64,000 nucleotides of DNA, taken from contig NZ_CP054139.1 of assembly GCF_013283875.1 (NCBI RefSeq), positions 1,984,001 through 2,048,000 of the forward strand. The letters are read 5' to 3'. The DNA is from Mucilaginibacter mali (GTDB taxonomy: Bacteria; Bacteroidota; Bacteroidia; Sphingobacteriales; Sphingobacteriaceae). Under the pieces are notes generated by a model, which saw only the letters and a list, made by a program, of their open reading frames with translations, did no database searches and was not told the origin of the DNA. Shown piece by piece: positions 6,542 to 35,949 of the stretch (the stretch's first letter is position 1; each line of letters begins with the position of its first letter). The translations under genes were made by a program, and so were the position numbers.

Positions 6542-8662
6542 ATGTCAGTTAACACGATTGATTTTAAGCATGTAAGTTACCTGTGGGATGATGCAAAGGC
6601 GGCAGAGCTGGCCGGCGATGAGGTAGCACTATTAATATACCGTTCTAACCTGTTGGGCGCCGATCTGCGTTTAACCAACTATGGCGGCGGTAATACTTCG
6701 TGCAAAGCCATGGCCAAAGACCCCCTGACCGGTGAGGAAGTAGAAGTGATGTGGATAAAAGGTTCGGGTGGCGACATCGGTACGCTGAAAAAAAGTGGTT
6801 TAGCCGCTTTGTATGTAGACCGTTTGCGCAGCCTGAAAAATGTCTACCGTGGCATCGAGCACGAAGACGAAATGGTTGAGCTGTTTAACCATTGCATTTA
6901 CGACCTTGCTTCAAAAGCCCCTTCAATTGATACCCCGCTGCATGGTTTCCTGCCATTTAAGCACATCGACCACCTGCACCCCGACGCGGCTATCGCGATA
7001 GCTGCCGCTAAGGATGGCAAAAAGATCACCGAAGAATTATTCGGTGGTACTATTGGTTGGGTTGAGTGGCAAAAACCAGGTTTCGACCTTGGCCTGCAAC
7101 TGAAACAATGCCTTGATGAGAACCCGGGCATCCGTGGTATCATGCTGGGCTCGCACGGTTTGTTCACCTGGGGTGATACCGCTTACGAAAGCTATATGAA
7201 CACCCTTGAGGTAATTGAGCAATGTGCTGAATACCTGGAGCAAAACTATGGTAAAAAAGGCCCGGTATTTGGCGGCCAGAAAATAGAGAGCTTAGAAGCC
7301 GAAGCTCGTAAAGCACAGGCAGTTGCTTTAGCGCCGATACTGCGTGGTTTCTGCTCGTCAAAAACCAAAATGATCGGTCACTTTACCGATGATGCCCGTG
7401 TATTAGAGTTCACCAACTCTAACGACCTTGGCCGTTTGGCTCCACTGGGTACCAGCTGCCCTGACCACTTTCTGCGTACCAAGATCAGCCCGCTGGTGTT
7501 GGAACTGGAAGCAGGCGAGGACCTGAGCGATGTTGCCGCCCTAAAAGCGCGTTTAACCCCTGCATTTGAGGCTTACCGCAAAATGTACGAGGATTATTAC
7601 AATACCTGCAAGCACCCAAACAGCCCGGCCATTCGCGATGCTAATCCGGTGGTTATCCTGTACCCTGGTGTAGGTATGTTCACTTTTGCTAAAGATAAGC
7701 AGACCGCCCGTGTTGCTGCCGAGTTCTATATCAACGCCATCAACGTAATGAAAGGCGCCGAGGCTATCTCTGAGTATACTTCATTGCCACGCCAGGAAGC
7801 TTTCAATATCGAGTACTGGCTGTTGGAAGAAGCTAAATTACAGCGTATGCCTAAGCCGAAAGCATTATCAGGCCGTATCGCTTTAATTACCGGTAGTGCC
7901 GGTGGTATTGGTAAAGCTATCGCCAAAAAATTTGCCGAAGAAGGTGCCGTAGTGGTACTTAACGATATGAATGCCGAGCGTTTAGCTGAGGCTGGTGAAG
8001 AGTTTAAGAAATTATTTGGTAAAGACATTTACACTACAGCTGTATTAGATGTTACCAAGGGCGAAGATATTGCCGGCGCGGTAGCCGCGTCTATCCTGGC
8101 ATTTGGCGGTGTCGACCTGATCGTGAACAATGCCGGTCTGTCTATCTCTAAAACTATTGCCGATCATACCGAAAAAGATTGGGACTTATTATATGATGTA
8201 TTGGTGAAAGGCCAGTTCATGATCACTCAAGCCGCTGTTGCTGTAATGAAGAAACAGGACATTGGTGGCGATATCATCAACATCGTAAGCAAAAACGCTT
8301 TGGTTAGTGGCCCTAACAACGCTGGTTACGGTAGTGCCAAAGCTGCGCAAATGCACCTGAGCCGCCTTAACGCTGCCGAACTGGGTGTAGATAAGATCCG
8401 TGTGAACGTGGTTAACCCTGACGCGGTGATCAGCGATAGCAATATCTGGGCTGGTGGCTGGGCCGAAGGCCGTGCAAAAGCTTACGGTATCACCGTTGCC
8501 GAACTGCCTGCTTACTACGCGAAACGTACTTTACTGAACGAGATCATCTTACCGGACGATATCGCTAACGCCTGCTTCGCGCTTACCGGCGGTTTGCTTA
8601 ACAAATCGACAGGTAACGTAGTGAACGTTGACGGTGGTGTAGCTGCTGGTTTCGTTCGCTAA
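6542..8662 (+). CDS. rhaE: Bifunctional rhamnulose-1-phosphate aldolase / lactaldehyde dehydrogenase (aldolase-SDR fusion)
   Basis: A 706-residue fusion. Residues 1 to ~430 are a class II aldolase/adducin domain (GGGNTSCK, HGFLPFKHIDHLHPDA with metal-binding His, MLGSHGLFTWG). From ~443 there is a short-chain dehydrogenase with the cofactor motif TGSAGGIG and catalytic Y596/K600 in YGSAK. Fusions of this kind (RhaE/RhaEW, Bacillus YuxG type) cleave L-rhamnulose-1-phosphate to dihydroxyacetone phosphate and L-lactaldehyde and oxidise the lactaldehyde. Cytoplasmic. It is the second gene of the operon. A 102-bp palindrome-rich gap separates it from rhaM. Confidence 0.9.
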   Translation: MSVNTIDFKHVSYLWDDAKAAELAGDEVALLIYRSNLLGADLRLTNYGGGNTSCKAMAKDPLTGEEVEVMWIKGSGGDIGTLKKSGLAALYVDRLRSLKNVYRGIEHEDEMVELFNHCIYDLASKAPSIDTPLHGFLPFKHIDHLHPDAAIAIAAAKDGKKITEELFGGTIGWVEWQKPGFDLGLQLKQCLDENPGIRGIMLGSHGLFTWGDTAYESYMNTLEVIEQCAEYLEQNYGKKGPVFGGQKIESLEAEARKAQAVALAPILRGFCSSKTKMIGHFTDDARVLEFTNSNDLGRLAPLGTSCPDHFLRTKISPLVLELEAGEDLSDVAALKARLTPAFEAYRKMYEDYYNTCKHPNSPAIRDANPVVILYPGVGMFTFAKDKQTARVAAEFYINAINVMKGAEAISEYTSLPRQEAFNIEYWLLEEAKLQRMPKPKALSGRIALITGSAGGIGKAIAKKFAEEGAVVVLNDMNAERLAEAGEEFKKLFGKDIYTTAVLDVTKGEDIAGAVAASILAFGGVDLIVNNAGLSISKTIADHTEKDWDLLYDVLVKGQFMITQAAVAVMKKQDIGGDIINIVSKNALVSGPNNAGYGSAKAAQMHLSRLNAAELGVDKIRVNVVNPDAVISDSNIWAGGWAEGRAKAYGITVAELPAYYAKRTLLNEIILPDDIANACFALTGGLLNKSTGNVVNVDGGVAAGFVR

Positions 8663-22631: not shown

Positions 22632-24170
22632 ATGAACCGGAGAATTTTAGCCGGCTGCCTTCTGTTAGTTGCAGGCACCATTAAGAATCACGCGCATGCC
22701 CAAGCCAAAAGCCAATGGGTTTACCAGGGCGATAACGCTAAACTGAACTACAAAACCCTGCCGCAAGGCGACAGGATAATGGATTTCTCGTACGCTGGCT
22801 ATATGGGCGGCGGCGTAACGCTTCCATCACCTGAAGTGAAAATTACATTAGATGCGATGAACGGCGATAATGCGGATGCCATCCAGTCGGCCATTGAAAA
22901 GGTATCGAAGATGCCACTGGTAAATGGCTTCCGCGGAACTGTATTGTTAAATAAGGGTACGTATGATTGCAGTAAACCCATCAGTATTAATGCCAGCGGC
23001 GTGGTGCTGCGTGGCAGCGGGGCGGACGATAAGGGTACCATCATCAATATGACAGGCAATCCACACGTATGCCTCACGGTGAAAAACAGGCCTGTGGTTA
23101 AAAATATTGGCAAGGCTGTTTCGGTGGCAGATGCCTATGTGCCTGCCGGGACCAATACATTTACATTGAGCAGCACATCGGGACTATCTGTTGGCGATAC
23201 CATATCCATCACCAAGCCCGTAGCGCCCGATTGGGTGGCTTTTATGGGTATGGACCAGTTAACCCGCGATGGCAAGAAGCAAACCTGGATGACCGGCGAG
23301 ATCAGCGCCGAACGGGTAATAACAGCCATTGCGGGTAATAAAGTAACGGTTGATGTGCCCTTTAATGATAATTACGATGCCAAATATTTAGGTGCAGGCA
23401 GTGTATCGGTGAGCAAGATCAGTACTACGGGGATGCTGTCGCAAATTGGTTTTGAGCACATGCGCATCGTCTCGCCCGATCAAACCGGAACGATAGACGA
23501 GAAGCACCACTCCGGCGTAAACCTAAGCGGGATGGTTGATGGCTGGGTGAAAGATATCGACATTTATAATACAGTGAACAGCTTCGGTATTACCGGCAGC
23601 CGCATTACGGTGCTGCGGGTAAACATCATCCATAACCTGGCCACCACGGGCGCTGCCAAACCAGCCGATTTTAATGGCAGCGGCGCGCAATTGTTATACG
23701 ACCACTGCACCATCACCGGTAACAATGTTTTCTTTTTTGCCACCGGAGCCAAGGTGAACGGGCCAATAGTAATGCTGAACTGTACTTTTAAAGGTAACGG
23801 CTGGATACAACCCCACCAGCGCTGGGCCACAGGTTTGCTGATTGACAATTGCCAGGTGCCCGATGGTGGCATCGATTTTATGAACCGCGGGGCAATGGGA
23901 TCGGGCCATGGCTGGGCTATTGGCTGGGCCGTAGCCTGGAACTGCAAGGCCAAATCGTACCTAAACCAGCAGCCACCCGGTGCCGCCAACTGGGTGATAG
24001 GCAGCAGTGGCGAGCAGCAAAAGCGCGATGTGCCATTTATAAAAGGATCGGGCATGGTACCCGAAGGTATATATGATTCGTACCGGAAGCCTGTTACACC
24101 GCAAAGCCTTTATCTTTCGCAATTAAAAGAGCGTAAGGGCGAACAAGCGGTTAAGAATGTGGGGTATTGA
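22632..24170 (+). CDS. Secreted right-handed beta-helix protein (pectate-lyase-superfamily fold)
   Basis: A 512-residue protein with a signal peptide ending AHAQ near residue 24. Residues ~75-135 read as the start of a parallel beta-helix of the pectate-lyase-3/GH28 type: DAIQSAIEKVSK, GTVLLNKGTYDCSKPISINASGVVLRGSG. Later rungs follow (SQIGFEHMRIVSP, HNLATTGAAKP, LLYDHCTITGNNVFFFATGAK). It probably binds or cleaves a polysaccharide, and its pairing with the lyase upstream points to uronate polymers. No catalytic residues can be named, so hydrolase, lyase and non-catalytic roles all remain possible. Confidence 0.72.
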   Translation: MNRRILAGCLLLVAGTIKNHAHAQAKSQWVYQGDNAKLNYKTLPQGDRIMDFSYAGYMGGGVTLPSPEVKITLDAMNGDNADAIQSAIEKVSKMPLVNGFRGTVLLNKGTYDCSKPISINASGVVLRGSGADDKGTIINMTGNPHVCLTVKNRPVVKNIGKAVSVADAYVPAGTNTFTLSSTSGLSVGDTISITKPVAPDWVAFMGMDQLTRDGKKQTWMTGEISAERVITAIAGNKVTVDVPFNDNYDAKYLGAGSVSVSKISTTGMLSQIGFEHMRIVSPDQTGTIDEKHHSGVNLSGMVDGWVKDIDIYNTVNSFGITGSRITVLRVNIIHNLATTGAAKPADFNGSGAQLLYDHCTITGNNVFFFATGAKVNGPIVMLNCTFKGNGWIQPHQRWATGLLIDNCQVPDGGIDFMNRGAMGSGHGWAIGWAVAWNCKAKSYLNQQPPGAANWVIGSSGEQQKRDVPFIKGSGMVPEGIYDSYRKPVTPQSLYLSQLKERKGEQAVKNVGY

Positions 24171-24228
24171 GGTTAGAGATTAAAGATTAGAGATTAGTCA
24201 AATGTAGTAAAGAAGCCTAATCTCTAAT
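24171..24228. repeat. Heptamer repeat (GATTAGA) with palindromic partner
   Basis: GGTTAGA, GATTAAA, GATTAGA and GATTAG run in tandem with a 7-bp period from 24171. ATTAGAGATTAG (24186-24197) and CTAATCTCTAAT (24217-24228) are perfect 12-bp complements. It fills the 75-bp gap between convergent genes and could act as a two-way terminator stem. The same heptamer class occurs at 42851-42892. Confidence 0.7.
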
Positions 24229-24245
24229 CACTAATTAACTAATCT

Positions 24246-24869
24246 CTATTTAGCTTTCCCCAACCCATCCGTGCACGACGCGTCATCCGGTTTTATCATT
24301 AAACCACGCTCGAAACAGGCACGGGCCTCGGCTTTTTTACCCGAGAAGAGGTAGCTCCAGCCCAGCATTTGGTTGCCATCGTAATCGAATGGGTAAAGCG
24401 TTACTACTTTGGTGAAATATTTAATGGCGTTATCATATTGCTTGCGGTTATAGCTGATAATGCCTGTCCAGTAATTGGCCTGGGTGTTTTGCGGGTCTAT
24501 TTTTAAAATAGCGCTATACTGATCTAATACCTTATCCCAGCTTTCCAGCATCGACAGGGGTTTTACGTAACCAAAACGGGCTTCAATAGCGCCGGGCTTC
24601 AGGTTAATGGCCTTCAGGTAGTAGCTTTGCGATGAGGTGTAATTTTTATTGAGGAAATGCAGCCAGCCCAGGCGCAGGTTCACCTCATAATTGTTATCGG
24701 CATAGTAGGGCATCATATCGTTTATAGCTGCCGAATAAGCTTTTTTGGCCTCGTTGCTGTAGCTGTTATGAAATGCTTTTTCCATTGCCGCTGCGCTGCC
24801 CTGCGCGTACATACTTGTGCCGATGAGCAATAATGCTGCTGCGCAAAACAGCTTCTTTAAAATTTCCAT
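24246..24869 (-). CDS. Periplasmic TPR protein
   Basis: A 207-residue protein with a signal peptide ending MYAQ near residue 22. The remainder consists of TPR helices: NYEVNLRLGWLHFLNKNYTSSQSYYLKAINLKPGAIEARFGYV, NTQANYWTGIISYNRKQYDNAIKYFTKVVTLYPFDYDGNQMLGWSYLF and a last repeat ending the protein. TPR arrays bind partner proteins. It is the last gene of the PqqD/ATP-grasp operon and overlaps the outer-membrane barrel gene by 13 nt, so it may be a periplasmic adaptor for that barrel. No enzymatic domain is visible. Confidence 0.82.
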   Translation of the reverse strand: MEILKKLFCAAALLLIGTSMYAQGSAAAMEKAFHNSYSNEAKKAYSAAINDMMPYYADNNYEVNLRLGWLHFLNKNYTSSQSYYLKAINLKPGAIEARFGYVKPLSMLESWDKVLDQYSAILKIDPQNTQANYWTGIISYNRKQYDNAIKYFTKVVTLYPFDYDGNQMLGWSYLFSGKKAEARACFERGLMIKPDDASCTDGLGKAK

Positions 24870-26059
24870 GTAAATCCTCCGGTTATTGAATTTTGGTTAA
24901 AGTTTTTGTTTAAGTAGTAATCCTGTTTTTGTTCGAAAGCATAATTGATATATAAAACGGCATGCTGCCCCAGTTGAAAGAAACCGGTAAGGCCCGCCTT
25001 TAGTTTGGTAACATCAATAGCGTTGTACACATACAACGCATCGGCATCAAGGTAATTATCCATGGTGCCAAAAGTGCCATTAGCTTCCAGCCAGAATGGC
25101 TTAGCCGCCTTAAAGCCAAGTGTTTGGCTAAAGATAGTTTGCTGCATATCGCCGCTTTGTACCGATACCCGGCTGATGGTGTACAGGTTCAAATTCCCCA
25201 TAGGATAAAAGCTGAGTTGCCCGTTATACTGCTGCACATTGTTATTGCTGATGGTCGCCACATTCGCGTCGGCCTGTAGGGTAACGTAGGGCAGGGAATA
25301 CTTTAACCCGATCAACCCGATGTGATTTTGAAAACTGCTGGTGCCAAAGCTTGTATTGAGGTAATGGTAAGCACCCAAAACATTAAGGTTGCTGTTGACA
25401 GCAAAGCCCAGTTTGCCATAATACTCAAATTGCGTATCGGTAAAGGTAGCGCTGTTAGGGCTGGCTATGGCCGGCGCGCCTGCAGCCGCAGGTATAGCTA
25501 CTAATGCGGTAATAGACTGGTTATAATATGCCACCGATTGATCCAAAGTTAGCTTCCAGCCCAGTCGGTTGCTTAAAAACGCGCGTGTATAGTTACCCGT
25601 ACCGCGCAGGTTATTTTGCGGCAGCTTTACACTGCTTTCTAAACCTGCCTGTACCAAGCCAAATTGTGTGACTTGTTCCCGGTTCATGGTAACCGTATCA
25701 ACAAACGATGCATGGTACGATGCCGCGTTGGTATTGCCCAGATACCTGCTGCACAGATAGCTGTAGTACCGCGCCATTTGGTTGTGCGAATCGTCCTTTA
25801 GTACCTCGGCATATTGGGTGAGGGCACCGCTATAGTTTTGGCCCATAAAATTGGCGTAGGCCATGCGCAGGCGCAACACGGGATAATCAACCCCGGCAGC
25901 GATGGCCTTATTGCCGTAATCTACCAGTCCGGTCCAATTGCGGGCGTTATAATATACCAGCGATGTGCTGTCGGCTTGCTGAAAGCTGATGCTTTGCGCC
26001 CGTGCTGCTATCGTGCACAGCGCCAGCAGCACAATTAAAATATATGTTCTGTTTGCCAT
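24857..26059 (-). CDS. Outer-membrane beta-barrel protein with N-terminal TPR-like region
   Basis: A 400-residue protein with a signal peptide ending ARAQ at residue 22. Residues ~25-130 are TPR-like helices (NWTGLVDYGNKAIAAGVDYPVLRLRMAYANFMGQNYSGALTQYAEVL). From ~150 onward the sequence alternates polar and aromatic residues as in transmembrane beta-strands, ending GGFTWKF with the C-terminal Phe usual for Bam-inserted barrels. The layout resembles YaiO-type barrels. It overlaps the transporter-peptidase gene by 25 nt and the TPR gene by 13 nt, so it is co-translated with both. An export or import channel is the inferred role. Confidence 0.78.
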   Translation of the reverse strand: MANRTYILIVLLALCTIAARAQSISFQQADSTSLVYYNARNWTGLVDYGNKAIAAGVDYPVLRLRMAYANFMGQNYSGALTQYAEVLKDDSHNQMARYYSYLCSRYLGNTNAASYHASFVDTVTMNREQVTQFGLVQAGLESSVKLPQNNLRGTGNYTRAFLSNRLGWKLTLDQSVAYYNQSITALVAIPAAAGAPAIASPNSATFTDTQFEYYGKLGFAVNSNLNVLGAYHYLNTSFGTSSFQNHIGLIGLKYSLPYVTLQADANVATISNNNVQQYNGQLSFYPMGNLNLYTISRVSVQSGDMQQTIFSQTLGFKAAKPFWLEANGTFGTMDNYLDADALYVYNAIDVTKLKAGLTGFFQLGQHAVLYINYAFEQKQDYYLNKNFNQNSITGGFTWKF

Positions 26060-28206
26060 TGTGCGGTTATGGTTGTTTCGTTTAAATTAATTGTGAACGA
26101 TTTGATCGCATTATCTGCTACCTGCACAGACGCGCTCATTACTTCTTTTTTGTTATTCAACAGTTGCTTGTACCCGGTAGATGTGATGGTTAATTGCTGT
26201 TGTTGATACGCGCTTTTGCTTTGATAGGTACGTTTAATGAACTGGTAAAAAGGCGCCACCAGGTCATGCAACCAGATGCCCGGCGAAAGATTTCGAAGTT
26301 GAAGCGGATAAACATCGGTAGCCACCACAGCATTATCGGCCGTGAATACTACCTTATAAGCCGCTAAATAGAAGTAATAAAGCAGCGAGGTATCATCGCC
26401 ATAAAAGCTGGTGAAGTAAAAAGCTGTGCCGTTATTTACAAAATAAACTGTAGCGCCGGTTTCCTTACTGGTAATGTATGATTGATTGTAGGCATCGGTA
26501 AATACCTCCACCGTTTCGGTTTTGCCGTTGCCGCCCGATAGTTTGGCGTTATAGCCCGGCTGCCAGGTAAAGGCCTGTTTTAGCTGGGCGTTCATATCTA
26601 CCGGTTGCAATTGCATGCCTTCGGCGGGTATTTCAAAGCTGTGCAGCTGTTCGCTGTTGCCATTGTTGCTGGTGTAATAGGCGAAGGGATATGCCAAAGT
26701 TTTAGAGCCGATATAAGGCGTAACCTGCATCTGAAAATGCAGATGCGGTTCAGGAGAGCGGCCGGAATTGCCGCACAGTCCCAATAAGTCGCCCTGCTTT
26801 ACATAATCACCAATTTTTACTTTAACCGAATGCTGCTTCAGGTGCGATACCTTACTGTATAACCCGGTAAGGTGTTTAATAACCACCGTATTGCCCCAGT
26901 TTTGCTGTGTGTTTACTACTCCTATTTCATTATCCTCAATATGGTTCACCACATCTTCCACCACGCCGTCGGCACAGGCCAAAACAGGTTTGTTGAAGCA
27001 GTAAAAATGTTCGGGTCGGGTGCCGGTATCGCGATAGGTATTGTTATCCTCGTCGGTAATTACAAAATCCAAAGCCTTGCCCCATTCCTCTTTATGGGTG
27101 ATGCCGCCGTCATATCCCTGCGATACCGTCCATGTGCCGATAAATGGCAGGCTAAGGCGCAGGTATTTCAAATCCTGCAAGCGTTCCTGCCCGTTAAGGA
27201 ATTGATAAAGATTGATCTCGGGCGAGTAATGTTGTATCGGTGTTAGCTGTAGCTTGCCGGGGTTGGTGCGCAACATAAAGAAATACAGCAGCGCGATGGT
27301 AAGCAAACAGAACGGCAGCGAGAAGATAGGCAGGTTATGCACACCCAAGATCCGCGTCAGCGCGTTCACCAGCAGGAAAGCTACCGGTACGGTAATGATA
27401 GCCCAAATGTAGGAACGTACCGATGGGATCAGGAAAAAACCACCGATAGCCACCGATACCATCATAAAGTTGGCCCCCAAATGATAATGGCTGATGCCAT
27501 CAGGATAAACACCTGTAATGCTGTTAAATAAGCACGATGTAATAAAGCCCAGGATCAATAAACTAAAGCCTATTCTTGAATGGATAAAGAGGCCGATACT
27601 CATCACAATACCTGCCACAATACTGTTCTGAAAAAAGATGGAACTTAATGAGCGGAAAAACAGATCGGGGTATTTACCAAAGCAAAGCTTATCAAGGTTT
27701 GATAAAAATTGAACAATATAGGCGCTGCGCCCGGTGTACAATTCCGTAAGCATGTAGCTTTCCTTTTGTTCAAGCCCCATGCCTGCGTAACCATTAGCCG
27801 CAACTAACACTGCCCAAAAAGTAAGCACAAAGGGAATGGATAGCACCGGCAAGCCATATTTACCCAGCCAGGCGGTGAGTACAACGGTTAAGGTAAGTAC
27901 CAGCAGGCAGGCCGCTATCAGCCACAGTAAAAACGCCGTGTTAAAATGGTAGAACGTACCGAATCCGATCCCCAGCAATAGCGCGTTAAAACTGTATAGC
28001 CCGCTTTGTATGCTATCGCGGTGGTAGCCCATCAGGCTGGCCAGTACAATGGTGGCGCAGGTGCAGAGCAAGCCTGTTAACCCTGCGGCCGGGTTAAAAA
28101 AGGAGACCAGTAACAGCAGCACCGCCAATATCCTGTTCTGCGAAAAAAAAAGGATGGCGTAGCTGTTTAGTACCGATTTTGTATAATATATGATATTCTT
28201 ATTCAA
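26035..28206 (-). CDS. Urea-transporter-like membrane domain fused to an M23 metallopeptidase domain
   Basis: A 723-residue fusion. Residues 1 to ~325 form about ten membrane segments with the urea-transporter fold signature (NPAAGLTGLLCTCATIVLASLMGY, GLYSFNALLLGIGFG, and the second half SSIFFQNSIVAGIVMSIGLFI, GVYPDGISHYHLGANFMM). Residues ~350-500 are a LytM/M23 peptidase: His followed by Asp in THKEEWGKALDF, then EPHLHFQ as the HxH zinc motif, with GKPVLACADGVV-like and GDYVKQGDLLGLCGNSG segments. The last ~200 residues are a beta-rich, unassigned domain. In this operon the membrane half may carry a substrate other than urea. Confidence 0.85.
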   Translation of the reverse strand: MNKNIIYYTKSVLNSYAILFFSQNRILAVLLLLVSFFNPAAGLTGLLCTCATIVLASLMGYHRDSIQSGLYSFNALLLGIGFGTFYHFNTAFLLWLIAACLLVLTLTVVLTAWLGKYGLPVLSIPFVLTFWAVLVAANGYAGMGLEQKESYMLTELYTGRSAYIVQFLSNLDKLCFGKYPDLFFRSLSSIFFQNSIVAGIVMSIGLFIHSRIGFSLLILGFITSCLFNSITGVYPDGISHYHLGANFMMVSVAIGGFFLIPSVRSYIWAIITVPVAFLLVNALTRILGVHNLPIFSLPFCLLTIALLYFFMLRTNPGKLQLTPIQHYSPEINLYQFLNGQERLQDLKYLRLSLPFIGTWTVSQGYDGGITHKEEWGKALDFVITDEDNNTYRDTGTRPEHFYCFNKPVLACADGVVEDVVNHIEDNEIGVVNTQQNWGNTVVIKHLTGLYSKVSHLKQHSVKVKIGDYVKQGDLLGLCGNSGRSPEPHLHFQMQVTPYIGSKTLAYPFAYYTSNNGNSEQLHSFEIPAEGMQLQPVDMNAQLKQAFTWQPGYNAKLSGGNGKTETVEVFTDAYNQSYITSKETGATVYFVNNGTAFYFTSFYGDDTSLLYYFYLAAYKVVFTADNAVVATDVYPLQLRNLSPGIWLHDLVAPFYQFIKRTYQSKSAYQQQQLTITSTGYKQLLNNKKEVMSASVQVADNAIKSFTINLNETTITAQWQTEHIF

Positions 28207-28231
28207 TTGATTAAGTGTATCTATGTAAATT

Positions 28232-29593
28232 TTAAACCAGTTTAAATTGTTGCAGGTGGGCGGGTACCTGCTCCATTAATTCTATGTATTCCAGGTTCTC
28301 GGCACGGCGTATCTGGTGCACGTTCTGTTGCTCGTCTATCAGCACCACCGATGGGCGCATGCTGATAAACTGCATCCACTGCGTCATGTTATAGGCGCCA
28401 ACTTTATGCACCACTACATGGTCGCCGGGGTTCATCAGCGGCAAGTTAACGCTGTCGCGCACTACGTCAATGTTCATACATAAAGGGCCGTATAGAACCA
28501 TGTCTTCGGTATGCTGGTTAAAATCCTGCGCAGGGCTTATCTTATGCTCGTACCAAAAGGATGTGAACAGGGTGTTTACCCCAAAATTCATAATGGTGGC
28601 ACGGCGGCCATCGCTCAGACGTTTGTTCGCAATTACACTGCCCAGCAGGTAACCGGCATCATCTATCAGCACGCGACCACTTTCCAGTATCAGTAGGGGC
28701 AGTTCTTCCTGTTTAAAGCCGTAGCCTAAAATCACGGTGGTAATGGCCTCGGCAAAATCATCAACTGATGGTACGGTATCCACGCCTGGTAAGTAAGCGC
28801 CTTTTAAAGTATTTGTTGACGGGAAGCCGCCGCCCAGATCGAGGTATTGAATAGGGGTATACAGCAAATTTTTGCATCGCATGGCCAGTTCGCACAGCTT
28901 GCTGGCCGCAATAGCATAAGCCGATGTAGACAGCATAAATGTACCGATATGGCAATGCAGGCCAACCAGCTGCATTTTACCCGAGCCAACAATTTTTGAT
29001 ATGGCGTTCCAGGCCTGCCCGTTCTCGTAGTTAAAGCCGAAGCGGTCCCACAGTGGGTAAACACCGGTATCCAGGTTAATGCGGATAGCTACACGGGGCT
29101 TTTTATTCAGTTCTTCACAAATCTCTATCAGGTTATATAATTCATCGAAGTGATCGATATGGATCAGCGAATCGTTCTCTATCGCCAGTATCAATTCCTC
29201 GCGCTTTTTATCAGGGCCGTTGAAAATGATATGGTTACCCGCTACGCCATTCCCTAAGGCCTTGTGGTATTCAAAGCCCGACACTACCTCGGCCCAGCTG
29301 CCTTCCTGGTGAAAGATATTGCAAACAGCGTTAAGGTAATTGGTTTTATAACTCCATGCAAACTGCACCTTTGGGTAACGTGTTTTGAACGAACGCGCGG
29401 CCGACTGATAATTGCGGCGGATCTGCTTTTCTGACAATACGAACAGGGGAGAGCCGTACTCAGCTATCAATTGAGTTACCGGCACGCCGTCAATATGCTT
29501 TACTGGCTGAAACTCGGTGCGAGTACCGAATTTATTCATCAAACCGGCATTCATTTTTTTGATGACCGGGCGTTCGTACTTTAATTTTTTCAT
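28232..29593 (-). CDS. Fold-III PLP-dependent decarboxylase (DAP/Orn/Arg decarboxylase family)
   Basis: A 453-residue fold-III PLP enzyme related to LysA. K83 in FAWSYKTN is the PLP lysine; LHCHIG, LDLGGGFP and GPLCMNID (C372, D376) are cofactor and active-site segments. The protein has ~45 residues before the catalytic domain, with Y6-E-R-P9-V-I11 followed by MNAGLMNKFGTRTE. YxxPx(I/L) is the motif by which lasso-peptide leaders bind PqqD-like recognition proteins, and a PqqD-like protein is encoded in the same operon. The substrate is unlikely to be simply meso-DAP for lysine synthesis given this context, but that is inference. It starts after a 110-bp repeat-filled gap. Confidence 0.87.
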   Translation of the reverse strand: MKKLKYERPVIKKMNAGLMNKFGTRTEFQPVKHIDGVPVTQLIAEYGSPLFVLSEKQIRRNYQSAARSFKTRYPKVQFAWSYKTNYLNAVCNIFHQEGSWAEVVSGFEYHKALGNGVAGNHIIFNGPDKKREELILAIENDSLIHIDHFDELYNLIEICEELNKKPRVAIRINLDTGVYPLWDRFGFNYENGQAWNAISKIVGSGKMQLVGLHCHIGTFMLSTSAYAIAASKLCELAMRCKNLLYTPIQYLDLGGGFPSTNTLKGAYLPGVDTVPSVDDFAEAITTVILGYGFKQEELPLLILESGRVLIDDAGYLLGSVIANKRLSDGRRATIMNFGVNTLFTSFWYEHKISPAQDFNQHTEDMVLYGPLCMNIDVVRDSVNLPLMNPGDHVVVHKVGAYNMTQWMQFISMRPSVVLIDEQQNVHQIRRAENLEYIELMEQVPAHLQQFKLV

Positions 29594-29601
29594 CTTTTTT
29601 A

Positions 29602-29705
29602 AGCTGAAAGCTTAAAGCATAAGGCTGAAAGCTTTTTTTTAATATCCGTTTATAATCAATTAGGGTTGCTTCGGGCTTTGTGCCTTCAGCTTTCTGCTTT
29701 TAGCT
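29602..29705. repeat. Heptamer/palindrome repeat between ATP-grasp and decarboxylase genes
   Basis: AAGCTGA, AAGCTTA, AAGCATA, AGGCTGA and AAGC follow one another with a 7-bp period; the opposite end (CCTTCAGCTTTCTGCTTTTA) is the partial complement. Its last bases overlap the stop codon of the ATP-grasp gene (29704-29706). It lies within an otherwise tight operon. Confidence 0.65.
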
Positions 29706-30762
29706 ACAGTTCGCCAAAGGCGGATAATTGCTGAAACTCGCTTACATCGGTAATATGGTCCCAGGCATAGCGTATAAACATTTTGCCCACCTGGTATTCC
29801 TCAAATGGTTTAACGTTTTCGCCTAAGGCCAGTTTTGTTAAGGCCGCGGGCTGGTTTTGTCCGGCTCCGGCACTTAGGTATATCCATGCCGGGAAACGCG
29901 GGTTAACTTCCATAATGTATAGTTTGCCGTTGTTATCGCGCATAATTTCCAGTTCGAAACCGCCGCGCCAGTTGGTGGCTTTGGTAAATTGGCGTGCCAG
30001 TTCAAGCAGGTCGTTATCTTCAATCGTGATACCCGCCCAAGCCTTGCCCTTATCGGTGATATACAGTTTGCGCATAGGGATAATGCTGATGCAGTTACCC
30101 TCGCCATCGCCCAAAGCGGCAATGTTGATCTCGGTGCCTTTTATAAATTGTTGTACAATGATAGGCGTACCCCATTTGGCACTCAACTGGTAAAAAGCCT
30201 TTTGGGCCAGTTCAAGGTTGTGGCAAACGTAGGCTTCGTAATATTTACCTTTTACTACCAGCGGGTAATCCAGTTCTTCGGCGGCTTTTTTCAGGTCATC
30301 GGCTTTATGGATCACCAGATCCTGAGGTACAACCAACTTATACTTCTTGCCAAATTTGGTCAGGTTCACTTTATCCCGCGCTTCTAATGCTTCGTGGGTA
30401 GGTAAAAAGGTGTGGATGCCCATTATACGCAGCTGCGGGCTGATCTTGATAAAGTTGTACAGTTCAGCATCGAAATTAGGGATGATGATGTCGATATCTT
30501 CCTTACTATGAATATATTGCAGGCGTTCAGCTAAAGCTTCAGCTCCGGCAGATGGGTAGGGGATCTGGTAGGTTTTATCAACCAGGTCGTGCAGGTATAC
30601 ACCTGGTTCCAGCGATTCGTAAGAGAGGCCGATGATCCTCAACTCCCTGTCCAAACCCTCACGCAGGGCGCGGATCACCGCTACACCCGGGCCGGGGCTA
30701 TCCACGGCGTTAAGGGCGGTAACACCGATCACTAAAGGCTTATTTGTAAAAGTTTTTACCAT
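29704..30762 (-). CDS. ATP-grasp ligase (CarB/PylC-like)
   Basis: A 352-residue ATP-grasp enzyme. The N-terminal pre-ATP-grasp Rossmann-like domain begins KPLVIGVTALNAVDSPGPG. ATP-binding elements are YPLVVKGKYYEAY, PIIVQQFIKGTEINIAALGDGEG, and the metal-binding GGFELEIMRDNNGKLYIMEVNPRFPAW. Members of this group form carboxylate-amine or similar bonds through an acyl-phosphate. It lies 4 nt after the PqqD-like gene, so the two are probably partners; the PqqD fold commonly presents a peptide to its enzyme. Substrates are unknown. It may ligate an amino acid to a peptide or small molecule. Confidence 0.85.
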   Translation of the reverse strand: MVKTFTNKPLVIGVTALNAVDSPGPGVAVIRALREGLDRELRIIGLSYESLEPGVYLHDLVDKTYQIPYPSAGAEALAERLQYIHSKEDIDIIIPNFDAELYNFIKISPQLRIMGIHTFLPTHEALEARDKVNLTKFGKKYKLVVPQDLVIHKADDLKKAAEELDYPLVVKGKYYEAYVCHNLELAQKAFYQLSAKWGTPIIVQQFIKGTEINIAALGDGEGNCISIIPMRKLYITDKGKAWAGITIEDNDLLELARQFTKATNWRGGFELEIMRDNNGKLYIMEVNPRFPAWIYLSAGAGQNQPAALTKLALGENVKPFEEYQVGKMFIRYAWDHITDVSEFQQLSAFGEL

Positions 30763-30766
30763 CGCC

Positions 30767-31009
30767 TTATTGCTCTAACAGGTTGGCATCTTTTAATTGC
30801 AGTACCCAATCTTCCCAATCGCGCTCCAGTTGGGTGGCGTCAACATCGTAGGTATCCAGTATTTGCTGTTTAATTTCCAGCGAATCCTTGCCGGCTTTCA
30901 TCAGGGCCAGTATCTCGGCAGCTATAGGGTTGCTGCTAAAGGAATCGCCCGTGGAAGGGTTGAAAATAAAACCATTCTCGCTGGTGGCAATATTTTTTTT
31001 TAGTTTCAT
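30767..31009 (-). CDS. PqqD-like protein (RiPP recognition element fold)
   Basis: An 80-residue protein that matches PqqD: three N-terminal strands (NIATSENGFIFNPSTGDSFSSN) followed by a winged-helix bundle (PIAAEILALMKAGKDSLEIKQQI, DVDATQLERDWEDWVLQLKDANLLEQ). Discrete PqqD-like domains bind the leader part of peptide substrates and hand them to modifying enzymes. It is the first gene of the operon and sits 4 nt before the ATP-grasp gene. No separate short precursor gene is seen beside it. The only YxxPx(I/L) sequence noticed in the operon is at the decarboxylase N-terminus. Confidence 0.85.
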   Translation of the reverse strand: MKLKKNIATSENGFIFNPSTGDSFSSNPIAAEILALMKAGKDSLEIKQQILDTYDVDATQLERDWEDWVLQLKDANLLEQ

Positions 31010-31106: not shown

Positions 31107-31138
31107 AATGTATCGGCCAATGGCGATAATGTATCGAC
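31107..31138. promoter_or_regulatory. Candidate LytTR-type binding site: two direct repeats 21 bp apart
   Basis: AATGTATCGGC (31107-31117) and AATGTATCGAC (31128-31138) differ at one base and are spaced by exactly two helical turns, as known for LytTR regulators such as AgrA. They lie 98-129 bp ahead of the PqqD-like gene. A LytTR regulator gene is 3 kb away. Confidence 0.55.
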
Positions 31139-31481: not shown

Positions 31482-32594
31482 TTGCTTATCTCATACCCAA
31501 ATCACTTGTTTAAGATACCCGGTAACCATATCCCCGAGATAGTCGACAAAAAGTACTTCCCCGTTTTAGATGGGCTTCGTGCTGTTGCCATACTATTTGT
31601 GGTAATTGGCCATATCATTATCTATACACCGGCCAACAAATACATTAACGGCGCCATCGGGGTTGAGATATTTTTTGTTTTGAGTGGATTCCTGATCACT
31701 ACGCTGTTGTTGAAAGAGCGTGTGAGCAACGGACAAATATCCTTACGCAACTTCTATATACGCAGGACCTTGCGCATACTTCCCGTAGCTTATTTGTATT
31801 TGTTGGTGATAGGTGTTTTAAACTATATCTTCAATCTGCAAATTTCGGCCATCGCCTTCCTAAGCGATGTGTTTTACTTCCGGAATACCCCTATCAACTA
31901 CGGCCACAACGCATGGTTAACCGATCATTTCTGGACTTTATCCATCGAGGAGCAATTTTACCTCCTGTTTCCCTTGCTAATGGTTAAAAATTTTGGCCGA
32001 TATTTTAAGCTGATCGTGGTATTAATTATCGGCATCCCGCTGTTGCAGTTTTTAAGTTACCATAACGTAGGGGTCTTGTATTCAAACTACTGGGTGCATA
32101 AAGCGGCCATGGCCATTATCATATTATTTGGTCACGGAACTTTGTCTATACTCATTGGCTCACTACTGGCATTATTAATATTTAACGGGACACTAAAACC
32201 CGTCAAACTAAAAAATGCCCATTGGCTAAGCACACTTGTTTTTATAGCGGCCATTATTTTCAATGCCCAATACCCTGTGCTGATGGCAAATGTGTCTTTA
32301 AGTGAGATCATTTTTTCGATACTGATAGCGGTAGTTATCTTCCTGTGCCTGTCGTTTAACGATTTGCTGGGCCAACTGCTGTCAACCCCCGTTTTAGTAA
32401 AGGTTGGCGTGTTATCCTATAGCATCTACATCTGGCAGCAATTATTTACGTATAGCCAACCCTGGCAGCACGCGTTTAAATATGCAGATGCATGGTGGTT
32501 CAACATGCCTTTGTTGCTGATCGTATCAATAGCTTCCTACTACCTGTACGAGCGCAAATTCCTGAAATTAAAGGATAAGTTTAAGGCGGTTTAA
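31482..32594 (+). CDS. Acyltransferase family 3 (OafA/YrhL-like) membrane protein, paralogue 1
   Basis: A 370-residue protein with about ten membrane segments. FPVLDGLRAVAILFVVIGH, GVEIFFVLSGFLIT, FYIRRTLRILPVAYLY and DHFWTLSIEEQFYL are hallmarks of acyltransferase_3; the His in VVIGH is the expected catalytic residue. Such proteins O-acylate surface sugars. The start is TTG at 31482: the paralogue downstream has ATG at the equivalent place, where this gene reads ATC. It has a full-length paralogue at 32860-33966, probably from tandem duplication. The AATGTATCGGC motif ahead suggests control by the nearby LytTR pair. Confidence 0.88.
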   Translation: MLISYPNHLFKIPGNHIPEIVDKKYFPVLDGLRAVAILFVVIGHIIIYTPANKYINGAIGVEIFFVLSGFLITTLLLKERVSNGQISLRNFYIRRTLRILPVAYLYLLVIGVLNYIFNLQISAIAFLSDVFYFRNTPINYGHNAWLTDHFWTLSIEEQFYLLFPLLMVKNFGRYFKLIVVLIIGIPLLQFLSYHNVGVLYSNYWVHKAAMAIIILFGHGTLSILIGSLLALLIFNGTLKPVKLKNAHWLSTLVFIAAIIFNAQYPVLMANVSLSEIIFSILIAVVIFLCLSFNDLLGQLLSTPVLVKVGVLSYSIYIWQQLFTYSQPWQHAFKYADAWWFNMPLLLIVSIASYYLYERKFLKLKDKFKAV

Positions 32595-32595
32595 T

Positions 32596-32667
32596 TTACT
32601 TTTTCACCCAGCCTTTGGCAAAGGCGCTATAACTGTGGCTAATAGGCAATTCGGCGCCGGCCAATTG
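32596..32667 (-). pseudogene. C-terminal remnant of a LytTR regulator gene
   Basis: Encodes 23 residues ending SYSAFAKGWVKK plus stop, aligned with the last 23 residues of the intact regulator (33968-34672) except G for S and H for D. About ten of the codon differences are synonymous, including the stop (TAA against TAG). The remnant is cut at 32667/32668, where the duplicated intergenic segment begins. Confidence 0.8.
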
Positions 32668-32716
32668 TAATAATTAACAGGATAAGGGCCAACAGGCAGG
32701 TGAGGATCTTTTTCAT
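32639..32716 (-). pseudogene. Truncated chimeric copy of the small membrane-peptide frame
   Basis: Starts MKKILTCLLALILLII like the frame at 31235-31339, then runs into the LytTR remnant read in another frame and stops after 25 residues. It marks the duplication junction and is probably not functional. Confidence 0.5.
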
Positions 32717-32771
32717 TTTAAAGTAAACGCGGGGTTACGTGCTTTTAAAATGCTTAATTAAAATATATTGA
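32669..32771. repeat. Duplicated intergenic segment, copy 2
   Basis: The partner of 31292-31394, with one mismatch in 103 nt. It lies between the LytTR remnant and the second acyltransferase. Confidence 0.9.
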
Positions 32772-32795
32772 GCAACAAGGTAGATGAACAGCGAC

Positions 32796-32806
32796 AATGT
32801 ATCGGC
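32796..32806. promoter_or_regulatory. AATGTATCGGC motif ahead of acyltransferase 2
   Basis: Identical to the motif at 31421-31431 and followed by the same CGAACGG, 53 bp before the ATG of the second acyltransferase, although the sequence just before it has diverged. No convincing partner 21 bp away. Confidence 0.4.
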
Positions 32807-32859
32807 GAACGGATTTTTATTTTTGTGATTTGTAAATCCGAATTTTATTATCATTGTTA

Positions 32860-33966
32860 ATGCCTATAAATATCCATCAGTTGTTTAAAACCCCTGTTAA
32901 TCATGTACCGGCTATACTTGATGAAAAATATTTTCCGGTTTTAGACGGCTTGCGCGGTGTCGCTATTTTATTTGTTTTAGCCGGGCATCTTTTTTTTGAT
33001 ACACAAAAAGCAGGTAATATAGGACTAACCGGTGTAGAGATATTTTTTGTACTCAGTGGTTTCCTGATCACCACATTACTTTTAAAGGAAAAAGTAATAA
33101 AGGGAAGTGTTTCGTTAAGATATTTTTATATCAGGCGTATCCTCAGGATTGTGCCGGTAGCTTACCTTTATTTGGCCGTTTTGGTTGCTTTAAATATTGT
33201 TTTTAAGCTGCATGTCCCGCTCATATCCTTTCTTTCATCGCTGCTGTATATCCACAATATTACCTTTTATAAAGGCGACACGTCATGGTCATCCGCTCAT
33301 TTTTGGACATTGGGTGTCGAGGAGCAGTTTTACCTTATGTTTCCGTTTATATTGGTTAAAAGCATACGTAAATATATAATAACAGCCGCGGCACTATTAT
33401 TAGCTGTACCCGTTTTACAGTTTTTAGTTTATCACAATATCGGGGTGTTTTATGCTAATAATTGGGTACATAAAATTAGTGTGGCTGTAGTTGTAATTTT
33501 AGGCAATGGTACATTGGCCATACTTATTGGTTCGCTAACGGCTTTGCTGGTGTTTAAACAAGTGCTTAAACCTGGTGGTAAAACCAGGGCTTATTATTTA
33601 AGCACCTTGATTTTGATCACAGCTATAATCTTCAGGATATTTTGCCCGGTACTGGTGCCCAGCACTTATACGAACCAGATAGTATTTGCCATTTTTATCA
33701 GTGGCGTTATTTATTTGTGCTTATCCCGTCATGATTTTCTGGGGCGCTTACTGTCAAACAAAATAATAGTTAAGGTGGGCGTTTTATCCTACAGCATTTA
33801 TGTTTGGCAGCAATTGTTTACACACCAGCAGCCCTGGCAACATATTTTTAGATATGGCGGGGCCTGGTGGTTTAATATGCCCTTACTATTGCTTGTTGCT
33901 TATACATCGTACCAGTTTTTTGAAAGGAAGTTCTTAAATATAAAGGACAGGTTTAAAGCAGCCTGA
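32860..33966 (+). CDS. Acyltransferase family 3 (OafA/YrhL-like) membrane protein, paralogue 2
   Basis: A 368-residue protein from the ATG at 32860 (a TTG two codons earlier is also in frame). Same layout as the upstream paralogue: FPVLDGLRGVAILFVLAGH, GVEIFFVLSGFLITTLLLKE, FYIRRILRIVPVAYLYL, HFWTLGVEEQFYL, and a shared end (YSIYVWQQLFTHQQPWQH). The two proteins have diverged considerably while the sequence ahead of them has not. It is convergent with the LytTR gene, with 1 nt between the stop codons. The transferred acyl group and the acceptor are unknown. Confidence 0.9.
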   Translation: MPINIHQLFKTPVNHVPAILDEKYFPVLDGLRGVAILFVLAGHLFFDTQKAGNIGLTGVEIFFVLSGFLITTLLLKEKVIKGSVSLRYFYIRRILRIVPVAYLYLAVLVALNIVFKLHVPLISFLSSLLYIHNITFYKGDTSWSSAHFWTLGVEEQFYLMFPFILVKSIRKYIITAAALLLAVPVLQFLVYHNIGVFYANNWVHKISVAVVVILGNGTLAILIGSLTALLVFKQVLKPGGKTRAYYLSTLILITAIIFRIFCPVLVPSTYTNQIVFAIFISGVIYLCLSRHDFLGRLLSNKIIVKVGVLSYSIYVWQQLFTHQQPWQHIFRYGGAWWFNMPLLLLVAYTSYQFFERKFLNIKDRFKAA

Positions 33967-33967
33967 T

Positions 33968-34672
33968 CTATTTCTTTACCCACCCTTTAGCAAAGGCGCT
34001 ATAACTATCGCTGATGGGCAATTCGGCGCTGGCCAGTTGTATCTTACGGTTTTGGATGGATTTGATCTTACCCACGGCTACTACAAAGCTGCGGTGTACA
34101 CGCTGAAACTGATCGGGCGGCAATTTTTCTAAAACCTTTTTTAGTGGCATCAGGGTTAGCACCGGTTTTGAGGATGTGCCGGTATGGATCTTAATATAAT
34201 CCTCCATACTTTCAATATATTCAATATCGTTCAGGTTGATCTTAACCATCCGGTACTCCGAATATACATAAAGGCTTTCCTGCTGCATGGTGTTAACCTG
34301 GCTGGACTTGTATTGCTGAAAATCGACAGCTTTTTCAATCGCCTTGCCAAAGCGGGTCAAATCGATGGGTTTAAGCAGGTAGTCCAACGCTTCCAGTTCA
34401 AAACCCTCAAAGGCGAAGTTTTTATAGGCGGTGGTGAAGATCACCATCGGCTTCGGATCCAGCGAACGCACCAGATCGATACCGGTAATATCAGGCATAT
34501 TGATATCCACAAAAAGCAGGTCGATAGGGGTTTTAGCCAAAAACTCCGCGCCGGATATGGCATCCTCAAAACACTGCACCAATTGCAGGGTGGGGAATTT
34601 GGCGATATACTTGCGCATCAGTTCAAGCGCCAGTGGCTCGTCATCGATGGCTATGCATTTTAGTGGTGTCAT
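33968..34672 (-). CDS. LytTR-family response regulator
   Basis: A 234-residue regulator. Residues 1 to ~120 are a receiver domain with DDE near the N-terminus, the phosphoacceptor Asp in LLFVDINMPDITG, and K in LLKPIDL. Residues ~135-234 are a LytTR DNA-binding domain (VKINLNDIEYIESMEDYIKIHT, FQRVHRSFVVAVGKIKSI). LytTR proteins bind pairs of direct repeats about 21 bp apart, and such a pair lies at 31107-31138. It is encoded downstream of its LytS-like kinase with a strong palindrome between. A degenerate copy of its last 23 codons is at 32596-32667. Confidence 0.93.
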   Translation of the reverse strand: MTPLKCIAIDDEPLALELMRKYIAKFPTLQLVQCFEDAISGAEFLAKTPIDLLFVDINMPDITGIDLVRSLDPKPMVIFTTAYKNFAFEGFELEALDYLLKPIDLTRFGKAIEKAVDFQQYKSSQVNTMQQESLYVYSEYRMVKINLNDIEYIESMEDYIKIHTGTSSKPVLTLMPLKKVLEKLPPDQFQRVHRSFVVAVGKIKSIQNRKIQLASAELPISDSYSAFAKGWVKK

Positions 34673-34794: not shown

Positions 34795-35949
34795 TTAACT
34801 ATGCAGCGTCAACTTAACCTTAAATATATTATTCTTTTCCTCAATATTTAATAAATGCTTTTTCGGATAGATATACTCCAGCCGTTGACGGGTATTGGCA
34901 ATGCCTACACCCACCCGCTCGGGGTTTTTAGGCTGGTTATGAAATATCCGGTTCTCGCAGCAAAGGGTAATGGTTTGCGCTTCGGCTATCAGCTCGATAT
35001 CCAGCGTGCTTTCTTCCTGTTTACTGATGCCATATTTAAACATATTCTCTACAAAGGGGATCAGGATGAGTGGGGCAATACGCTGGGTGCTGATCTTTCC
35101 GGTGATCTTGAAGTTAACTTTTGTTTTTTTACCCAGGCGAAGGCGTTGCAGGTCGATGTAATCGTTCACACAATTGATCTCGTCCTGTAGCAGCACAAAG
35201 TCTTCGCTCACTTCGTCGGTAACGTAGCGCATAATATTGGATAGTTTCATAATGCTGTCCGACGTATGCTCGCTATTGGTAACCGAAAGCGTGTAGATAT
35301 TATTAAGCGTATTAAATAAAAAATGCGGATTGATCTGCGCCTTCAAAAAAGAGAGTTCGGCGTTGGCTTTTTCGGCTTCGGCCTTTACCACGCGCTGCTC
35401 GGTACTTTGCCATTGCTGCACGGTGCCTATGGCAATGCTCAAGGCCATCATCAGCGCAAAGATGACCAAACTCAGCGTATCGATATTGCGCGAGTGTTGC
35501 AGTAAGGGAGCTATCCCTGATACCGGTTTTGTTTCAGGCTCCTGCATGCGCAGGTCCTGGTGGGGCAGGGGGCCAAAATAGCGATGGCTGTTCTCTACGC
35601 TGTCTAAATATCGCTGGTGCGCTTCAATGGCCAACTGGGCCTGTACACGTGGGTTGTGGGTAAGCAGCTTATCAAAAGGCTGCAAAAAGTATACAAAGCC
35701 CAGCAAAAACAAAATAACAAGACTGTAAATAATATACCTTCTGCGCAATAATAGCTTTGGGATCAGGTACCCAAGGTTGAAGTAGAACATCCCCATATAA
35801 GTGAGGCAGAACAGCCAGTAATATGGCGATATCAGCAGCACCCAGGTAATGCCACCCTTAAGCCCCTCGTTAAGGAACAGCAGGGGGAATATCAGGAACA
35901 GCAACCAGCCGGCCGTGTGTATTACATAATTAGCTTTAAAGCGTAGCAT
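34795..35949 (-). CDS. LytS/YehU-type sensor histidine kinase
   Basis: A 384-residue kinase. Four hydrophobic segments lie within the first ~190 residues (VIHTAGWLLFLIFPLLFLN, YIIYSLVILFLLGFVYF, LSLVIFALMMALSIAIGTV among them). They are followed by the His_kinase motif FLKAQINPHFLFNTLNNIYTL with the phosphorylated His. The ATPase domain ends VGVGIANTRQRLEYIYP. It lacks a DHp domain of the EnvZ kind, as usual for this group. It is paired with the LytTR regulator 122 bp downstream. The stimulus is unknown; there is no extracytoplasmic sensor domain of notable size. Confidence 0.92.
   Translation of the reverse strand: MLRFKANYVIHTAGWLLFLIFPLLFLNEGLKGGITWVLLISPYYWLFCLTYMGMFYFNLGYLIPKLLLRRRYIIYSLVILFLLGFVYFLQPFDKLLTHNPRVQAQLAIEAHQRYLDSVENSHRYFGPLPHQDLRMQEPETKPVSGIAPLLQHSRNIDTLSLVIFALMMALSIAIGTVQQWQSTEQRVVKAEAEKANAELSFLKAQINPHFLFNTLNNIYTLSVTNSEHTSDSIMKLSNIMRYVTDEVSEDFVLLQDEINCVNDYIDLQRLRLGKKTKVNFKITGKISTQRIAPLILIPFVENMFKYGISKQEESTLDIELIAEAQTITLCCENRIFHNQPKNPERVGVGIANTRQRLEYIYPKKHLLNIEEKNNIFKVKLTLHS

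Follow-up and report, generated by a model that had tools for sequence, protein, structure and literature searches.

PqqD-family recognition elements are known as grips for precursor peptides. In lasso peptide biosynthesis, the Tyr, Pro, and Leu of a YxxPxL motif in the leader are needed for recognition by B1, a member of this family (PMC10368454), and in LppB, Asp70 hydrogen bonds to the leader Tyr, with F74, M78, and L83 among the residues that hold the Pro and the hydrophobic residue (PMC13381572). Enzymes of the N-citrylornithine decarboxylase clade, with SbnH, AcsE, MccE, and BtrK, act on conjugated amino acids (PMC7857480), and urea transporter (UT) proteins are pseudosymmetric (PMC10541013). 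We describe an operon of six minus-strand genes in a 64,000-nucleotide stretch of Mucilaginibacter mali DNA (contig NZ_CP054139.1, positions 1,984,001 to 2,048,000; hereafter "the window"), the source genome being a single contig of 6.04 Mb. The genes are lettered A (PqqD-like), B (ATP-grasp), C (decarboxylase), D (fusion of a UT domain and an M23 peptidase domain), E (predicted barrel), and F (TPR). Here the partner of the PqqD-family protein appears to be an enzyme. We hold with moderate confidence that A grips an N-terminal tag on C, likely bringing C to B, and that a small compound is made that would leave the cell via D and E/F.

The N terminus of C consists of a tag of about 23 residues (Y/F-E-x-P-x-I/L/V, usually a Gly, and then K-F-G), followed by a variable linker and the enzyme itself. 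The tag matches the YxxPxL motif bound by lasso-peptide PqqD-family proteins. From 199 loci entered, 189 had both A and C, and among the 181 distinct pairs Pro9 and Lys21 were present in all 181, Gly23 in 179, Glu7 in 176, Gly17 in 166, and Phe22 in 162. The strict form of the tag was found in 78 of 80 named loci; the two exceptions (V for E in L126 and H for F in L181) keep the Pro and the Lys. Across 48 sequences, the linker (entropy, 2.43) varies more than the tag (1.22) or the enzyme (1.11). In the AlphaFold model of C, residues 1 to 25 have pLDDT values below 50 and most of the enzyme has values above 80 (model numbering is one lower), and the tag is predicted to be disordered. A tag that is conserved yet disordered looks like a short docking motif. 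An earlier note on this DNA, in which the six genes were listed and proposed to work together, missed this leader-like tag, which gives the PqqD-family protein a partner inside the operon.

Protein A passes the Pfam cutoff for PqqD (PF05402; 42.6 bits against 23.4), and its only sequence relatives in the PDB at E-values up to 1 are lasso recognition proteins, namely TbiB1 (5v1u; E-value, 4.5e-4) and, weakly, TfuB1 (6jx3; E-value, 0.043). It scores below the cutoff of the curated lasso PqqD model (31.4 bits; cutoff, 70). No lasso B2 protease or cyclase was recognized among the families common to 47 gene neighborhoods (described below), in which family names were assigned by eye and by Pfam scans and not every neighbor was scanned. 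When the pocket residues of A are mapped to those of LppB by spacing, they fall on Asp64, Trp/Phe68, Leu72, and Leu77. Asp64 is found in 111 of 120 sequences, an aromatic residue at position 68 in 116, and Leu, Met, Ile, or Val at both 72 and 77 in all 120. The idea that A is itself a carrier protein was dropped, as its C terminus is not conserved (18 sequences).

The first residue of the tag motif (C column 6) and position 64 of A change together. Across the 181 pairs, a Tyr tag goes with Asp at A64 in 170 cases and Asn in 2, whereas a Phe tag goes with Asp in none of 9 (Tyr in 7, His in 1, and Ala in 1). The same pattern was seen in the first 119 loci (Tyr tag, 110 Asp and 2 other; Phe tag, 0 Asp and 7 other), and A64 ranks first among all columns of A as the partner of C column 6. 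On a tree of the catalytic part of C, built by a quick search with no mixture model, there are three changes of the tag and three changes between Asp and not-Asp. The agreement between Tyr or Phe in the tag and Asp64 is suggestive, amounting to three matching events and no proof.

In the window and the 47 other loci, every one of the 48 C proteins has the full tag and no other plausible gene carries it; the remaining matches to the search pattern lie in antisense frames or inside longer frames. A separate precursor with the full leader motif was likewise not found in the 48 loci, a search that did not cover looser motifs elsewhere in the genome. In the window's own genome, the short YExPx motif occurs 18 times, compared with 45 times for a control pattern, and the copy in C alone lies close to the beginning of a long open reading frame and is followed by K-F-G. 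To judge from these patterns, A likely docks decarboxylase C itself via the tag.

The six genes form one system and not a chance cluster. The grouping is more than chance because the gene order is kept across the phylum and because B is found together with D in one set of genomes. Within the operon, the genes are separated by gaps of 4, 110, and 25 nucleotides (nt) and then overlap by 25 and 13 nt. We compared 47 neighborhoods, of which 21 were chosen by C (order sample) and 26 by D (phylum sample), and found A-B-C-D in the same order and on the same strand in all 47, with one additional gene between A and B in L107. F is present in 45 of the 47 and an alignable E in 30; among the locus maps listed, distant loci have a shorter exported-looking protein of about 275 to 299 residues beside D or F. 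In L108, D is split into two frames (UT and M23) that join at a T-run around 9510 in operon orientation, with E/F about 6 kb away. This split was set aside as proof that the M23 domain is cytoplasmic, as slippage or a frame error in the assembly may account for the T-run junction. A second set, of 80 named loci, had A in 73, B and D in 77 each, E in 56, and F in 68, and the order was never broken; 48 of these loci have the complete ABCDEF set and 15 have ABCDF, lacking only an alignable E. The remaining named loci have shorter sets and lie at contig ends by coordinates, with the exception of L156. There, C with an intact tag (6717 to 8072) has no A or B beside it and is adjoined by a dnaA-like frame; the contig could be chimeric. 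The 13-nt overlap of E and F recurs in 26 of the 27 loci in which both were placed.

Long UT-M23 matches were found in 27 of 296 phylum genomes. Each of these 27, but none of the remaining 269, has an ortholog of B (at least 317 bits); the next match to B scores 56 bits. These two counts come from two draws of 296 phylum genomes, with the same handles where listed. C is found at an E-value of 1e-60 or better in 74 of 395 class genomes. A scan of named genomes gave at least 579 relatives, the best 80 of which are Bacteroidota, Ignavibacteria, or Chlorobiota by title; named isolates with relatives include Mucilaginibacter myungsuensis, M. psychrotolerans, and Pedobacter paludis. Among the matches listed, the nearest named relatives of D are Mucilaginibacter proteins of 72 to 80% identity. 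The earlier note's view of the six genes as one system is supported: the case that it named as refuting, genes that are not neighbors in other genomes, does not hold, as they are neighbors across the phylum. The positions, gaps, and overlaps that it gave are exact. No description of the gene set was found in the open-licence PMC papers searched. With an operon this common, a widespread Bacteroidota metabolite may be undescribed.

As to its catalytic part, C matches Orn_Arg_deC_N (101.7 bits) and the C-terminal sheet domain (48.6 bits) in Pfam, and its nearest PDB entry is 7kh2, an N-citrylornithine decarboxylase (E-value, 4.4e-56). Residues K83, H213, G254-256, E304, R307, C372, and D376 are kept in at least 47 of 48 sequences. 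In the FigC enzyme, His357 and Arg387 are predicted to bind ligand (PMC7857480). The aligned positions in C are Ile375 and Gln405, so its substrate should differ. B passes the cutoff of the Pfam ATP-grasp family PF15632 (44.3 bits against 29.1); carbamoyl phosphate synthase-like models of NCBIfam also match, all below their cutoffs, and the nearest PDB entry is 2pn1 (E-value, 5.4e-7). Glu271, Glu284, Asn286, and Arg288 of B are invariant in 19 sequences (alignment numbering, one lower than in the full protein).

D, which starts with a TTG codon, joins a complete UT fold (TMt, 0.84 to dvUT) to a LytM-like M23 part (Peptidase_M23, 61.2 bits). It scores below the cutoff of TIGR03441 (109.8 bits; cutoff, 274.6). 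Positions His371, Asp380, His455, His488, and His490, which we take from the familiar M23 motif to be the zinc-binding and catalytic residues, are invariant in 114 of 114 sequences. In the same 114 sequences, the loop charges of D alternate, with a positive N-terminal stretch and a central loop of net charge -1.4, and the linker before the M23 domain has on average 6.0 K+R compared with 3.1 D+E. Between the last UT helix and the M23 domain, the model has short helices only, and the sequence is charged. The model alignments drew on the proteins of the window and on those of the listed loci, 40 of 67 for D and 35 of 79 for C. UT channels have both termini in the cytoplasm. This arrangement and the charge pattern together place the M23 domain of D in the cytoplasm, as a prediction. 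E gave no Pfam match above cutoff and one weak match of the ARM/TPR type (E-value, 0.052), and weak TPR matches below cutoff were seen in two of its four relatives that were scanned, one from L163 and the other a frame next to D in L088. From its signal peptide and C-terminal aromatic residue, both read by eye, we infer that E is an outer-membrane barrel.

We propose that these parts could act in four steps. The RRE-like fold of A (RRE, recognition element of ribosomally synthesized and posttranslationally modified peptides, or RiPPs) would bind the YxxPxI part of the tag on C, as the motif, the pocket residues, and the covariation suggest. B would then attach an amino acid through an amide bond; the alpha-carboxylate of the conjugate would be removed by C, as FslC, MccE, and BtrK do on their own conjugates. 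The product may use the UT domain of D to cross the inner membrane, with the M23 domain working on the cytoplasmic side if the predicted topology is right. Finally, E and F could carry the product across the outer membrane, to judge from their signal peptides and their likeness to TPR/barrel exporters. Several points weigh against this proposal. The A64-C6 pair ranks only 20th of 36240 by mutual information with average product correction (MI-APC) and 7th by normalized mutual information, and by MI-APC the score of A64 with tag residue 20 is slightly higher than that with C6. Since other A-C pairs score higher, some shared ancestry remains and adds noise to the covariation. The Phe tags have three origins only, and a test of independent pairs, with one supported pair (three when all branches are used), cannot reach significance. 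Passage of the product through D is a guess. Two positions of dvUT, a Gln and a Glu with a role in the pore, are Ile18 and Ser189 in the D of the window; among 114 sequences, the first is Gln in 56 and the second is Glu in 0. As these positions are changed, the solute may not be urea. Finally, stand-alone relatives of the M23 domain in L059 to L061, whose genomes lack the operon, all have signal peptides by eye.

The conservation of the tag can be read in other ways. Lys21 and Gly23 lie beyond the part that would bind the RRE and are nevertheless almost constant. It is possible, though rather unlikely in our view, that the tag is a substrate, with A presenting it to B, B modifying or loading Lys21, and C decarboxylating the group on its own arm. 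B has a weak match to a PylC-like N domain (E-value, 0.0025, below cutoff), which fits this idea, as do BtrK and MccE, members of the same fold clade that act on carrier- or peptide-bound groups (PMC7857480). The K-F-G stretch, for its part, could simply be a second docking contact. Parallels would be the carrier-bound glutamate of BtrI/BtrJ/BtrK and the borosins, which bear a core peptide of their own. A fuller version, which we regard as unlikely, is that C carries its own substrate: the RRE would present the arm, B would load an amino acid via its side-chain carboxylate on Lys21, C would decarboxylate it in cis, and the cytoplasmic M23 domain would release the product into the urea-type channel. 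If true, the enzyme would bear a genetically encoded carrier arm with a lysine, taken over from the biosynthesis of peptide antibiotics. Quite unlikely, we think, is a third possibility, in which the M23 domain of D receives the tag from A and cuts it at or near K-F-G, trimming C or switching it on at the membrane channel. This would make use of the invariant catalytic positions of the M23 domain and of its predicted cytoplasmic location, and in LPP biosynthesis an RRE does present the leader cleavage site to a peptidase (PMC13381572). Against it, the stand-alone relatives of L059 to L061 are exported, and M23 peptidases mostly cut cell-wall peptides.

That usual role, together with the signal peptides of E, F, and the stand-alone relatives, is also what favors the reading in the earlier note, in which the peptidase is periplasmic and D, E, and F are a device for export, import, or cell-wall cutting. 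In 99 of 114 sequences the M23 domain has both of its two Cys residues, a pattern that a disulfide might give; the other 15 lack at least one of them. We consider this reading very unlikely. The match of D to the whole UT fold, the short charged helices that alone separate the last UT helix from the M23 domain, the basic linker, and the acidic central loop all argue for the cytoplasm, and this part of the earlier note is not upheld, although the exported relatives speak for it. A further reading, which takes C for an ordinary diaminopimelate decarboxylase and the cluster for lysine metabolism with unrelated neighbors, is almost certainly wrong. C does score 214.4 bits against the TIGR01048 lysA model, which is below the cutoff of 297.9, and the FslC model scores as well (212.3 bits; cutoff, 500). 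The genome holds a second, LysA-like homolog with 26% identity to C, no tag, and the loop CEST where C has CMNI. A Glu after the catalytic Cys is typical of LysA and is seen in this second protein. The LysA-like protein was seen in L002 and L030 only; seven other loci gave a neighboring gene (aspartate-kinase-like by eye), which is silent on the tag. Orthologs of C at 70% identity or more occur in only 22 of 151 order genomes, though all 151 have some match to C. Lysine biosynthesis was rejected on the second homolog, its CEST loop, and the sparse orthologs. By sequence, then, C is not the LysA-like enzyme of the genome, and the worry in the earlier note that it might be the only LysA is removed.

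Taken together, we favor the reading in which A docks C via the tag. If this is true, leader tags serve as a docking code, and ordinary enzymes can be searched for them.

A sensor kinase and a LytTR-type regulator are paired in 21 of the 47 neighborhoods, on the operon strand in 20, with a median position upstream of A. In the window, the nine-base word CGATACATT has five copies, all on the minus strand (31107, 31128, 31421, 32796, and 35988): two lie 21 nt apart upstream of A, one lies further up, one lies between two acyltransferase genes, and one lies just ahead of the kinase gene. The near relative L062 has a similar, less clear pair with the 21-nt spacing at the same distance from A. The LytTR regulator may use the repeat as its operator. 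The relatives gave no operator common to them all: outside the window, where the CGATACATT pair is clear, it can be made out only in L062, and there less well. The acyltransferase-family genes are two similar tandem genes (31482 to 33966, plus strand) between the operon and the kinase/regulator pair; the first was assigned by Pfam and the second by eye. In two distant loci, a secreted protein with a tail of the type IX secretion type stands directly upstream of A (L093, 4623 to 5699; L102, 5121 to 5999).

On the other side, the operon is adjoined by a plus-strand gene (22632 to 24170) whose product, of 512 residues, looks exported and matches nothing in Pfam at an E-value of 0.1; this gene stands downstream of one for a 396-residue secreted-looking protein. 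The intergenic stretches 29600 to 29703 and 24170 to 24245 contain repeated and inverted AGCTTTCAGC-like and TTAGTGATTAGAGATTA-like words and resemble dispersed intergenic repeats. Rfam gave no match at gathering score in the window, in which there is also no tRNA. A defense system was considered and discarded, with 0 PADLOC matches for all six proteins.

Table 1. Features of the operon and its upstream region (positions in the window)
Feature	Position	Strand	Basis
A: PqqD-family protein of the RiPP-recognition-element type, 80 amino acids (aa)	30767..31009	-	Pfam PF05402
B: ATP-grasp ligase-like protein, 352 aa, distant from characterized ligases	29704..30762	-	Pfam
C: pyridoxal phosphate (PLP) decarboxylase family, LysA/FslC fold, 453 aa, N-terminal tag	28232..29593	-	Pfam, PDB match
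Leader-like tag of C, residues Y6-G23 (YERPVIKKMNAGLMNKFG)	29525..29578	-	conservation, low pLDDT
Invariant Lys21 of the C tag	29531-29533	-	
D: UT channel and M23 fusion	26035..28206	-	Pfam; fold match to dvUT 3k3g and LytM domains
UT channel domain of D, residues 10-308	27283..28179	-	PF03253, 173.6 bits
M23 domain of D, residues 371-495 (Pfam: 405-495), predicted cytoplasmic	26722..27096	-	
E: exported, predicted outer-membrane barrel with TPR-like start, 400 aa	24857..26059	-	
F: TPR protein of 207 aa, exported (signal peptide read by eye)	24246..24869	-	TPR families (Pfam scan)
LytTR response regulator, likely operon regulator	33968..34672	-	Pfam
Sensor histidine kinase, partner of the LytTR regulator	34795..35949	-	PF06580, 90.8 bits
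Direct repeat CGATACATT-N12-CGATACATT upstream of A, putative LytTR operator	31107..31136	-	

Several parts of the operon have counterparts among known systems and depart from them in some respect. D shares the whole fold of the UT urea channels (dvUT and UT-B); unlike them, it has fused M23 and beta-rich parts, and it has the changes at the dvUT positions given above. Borosin enzymes have their precursor fused to the modifying enzyme, and C would resemble them in carrying a leader or core peptide on itself. The enzyme and the fold are different, and here the tag is N-terminal with a separate RRE. In butirosin biosynthesis (BtrI/BtrJ/BtrK), BtrJ is an ATP-grasp ligase. BtrK, like C, is LysA-like, and it decarboxylates a carrier-bound amino acid (PMC7857480). 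Unlike the butirosin pathway, the operon has no carrier-protein gene recognized among its conserved genes, and instead has the tag on the decarboxylase and the RRE. C further resembles FslC/FigC, SbnH, AcsE, MccE, and BtrK, which have the alanine racemase fold, stand beside LysA, and decarboxylate amino acids in conjugated form (PMC7857480). The FigC structure is the best PDB sequence match of C, and both have a Met after the catalytic Cys; C differs from FigC at the two ligand-binding positions, and no tag is seen in the aligned part of FigC (from residue 37). The lasso and LPP systems of RRE and leader (TbiB1, TfuB1/FusB1, and LppB) share with the operon a PqqD-family protein, a YxxPx[L/I/V] motif, and a pocket of Asp and aromatic/Leu residues kept by spacing. 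In those systems the motif is on a precursor peptide, whereas here it is on a 450-residue protein of a decarboxylase family.

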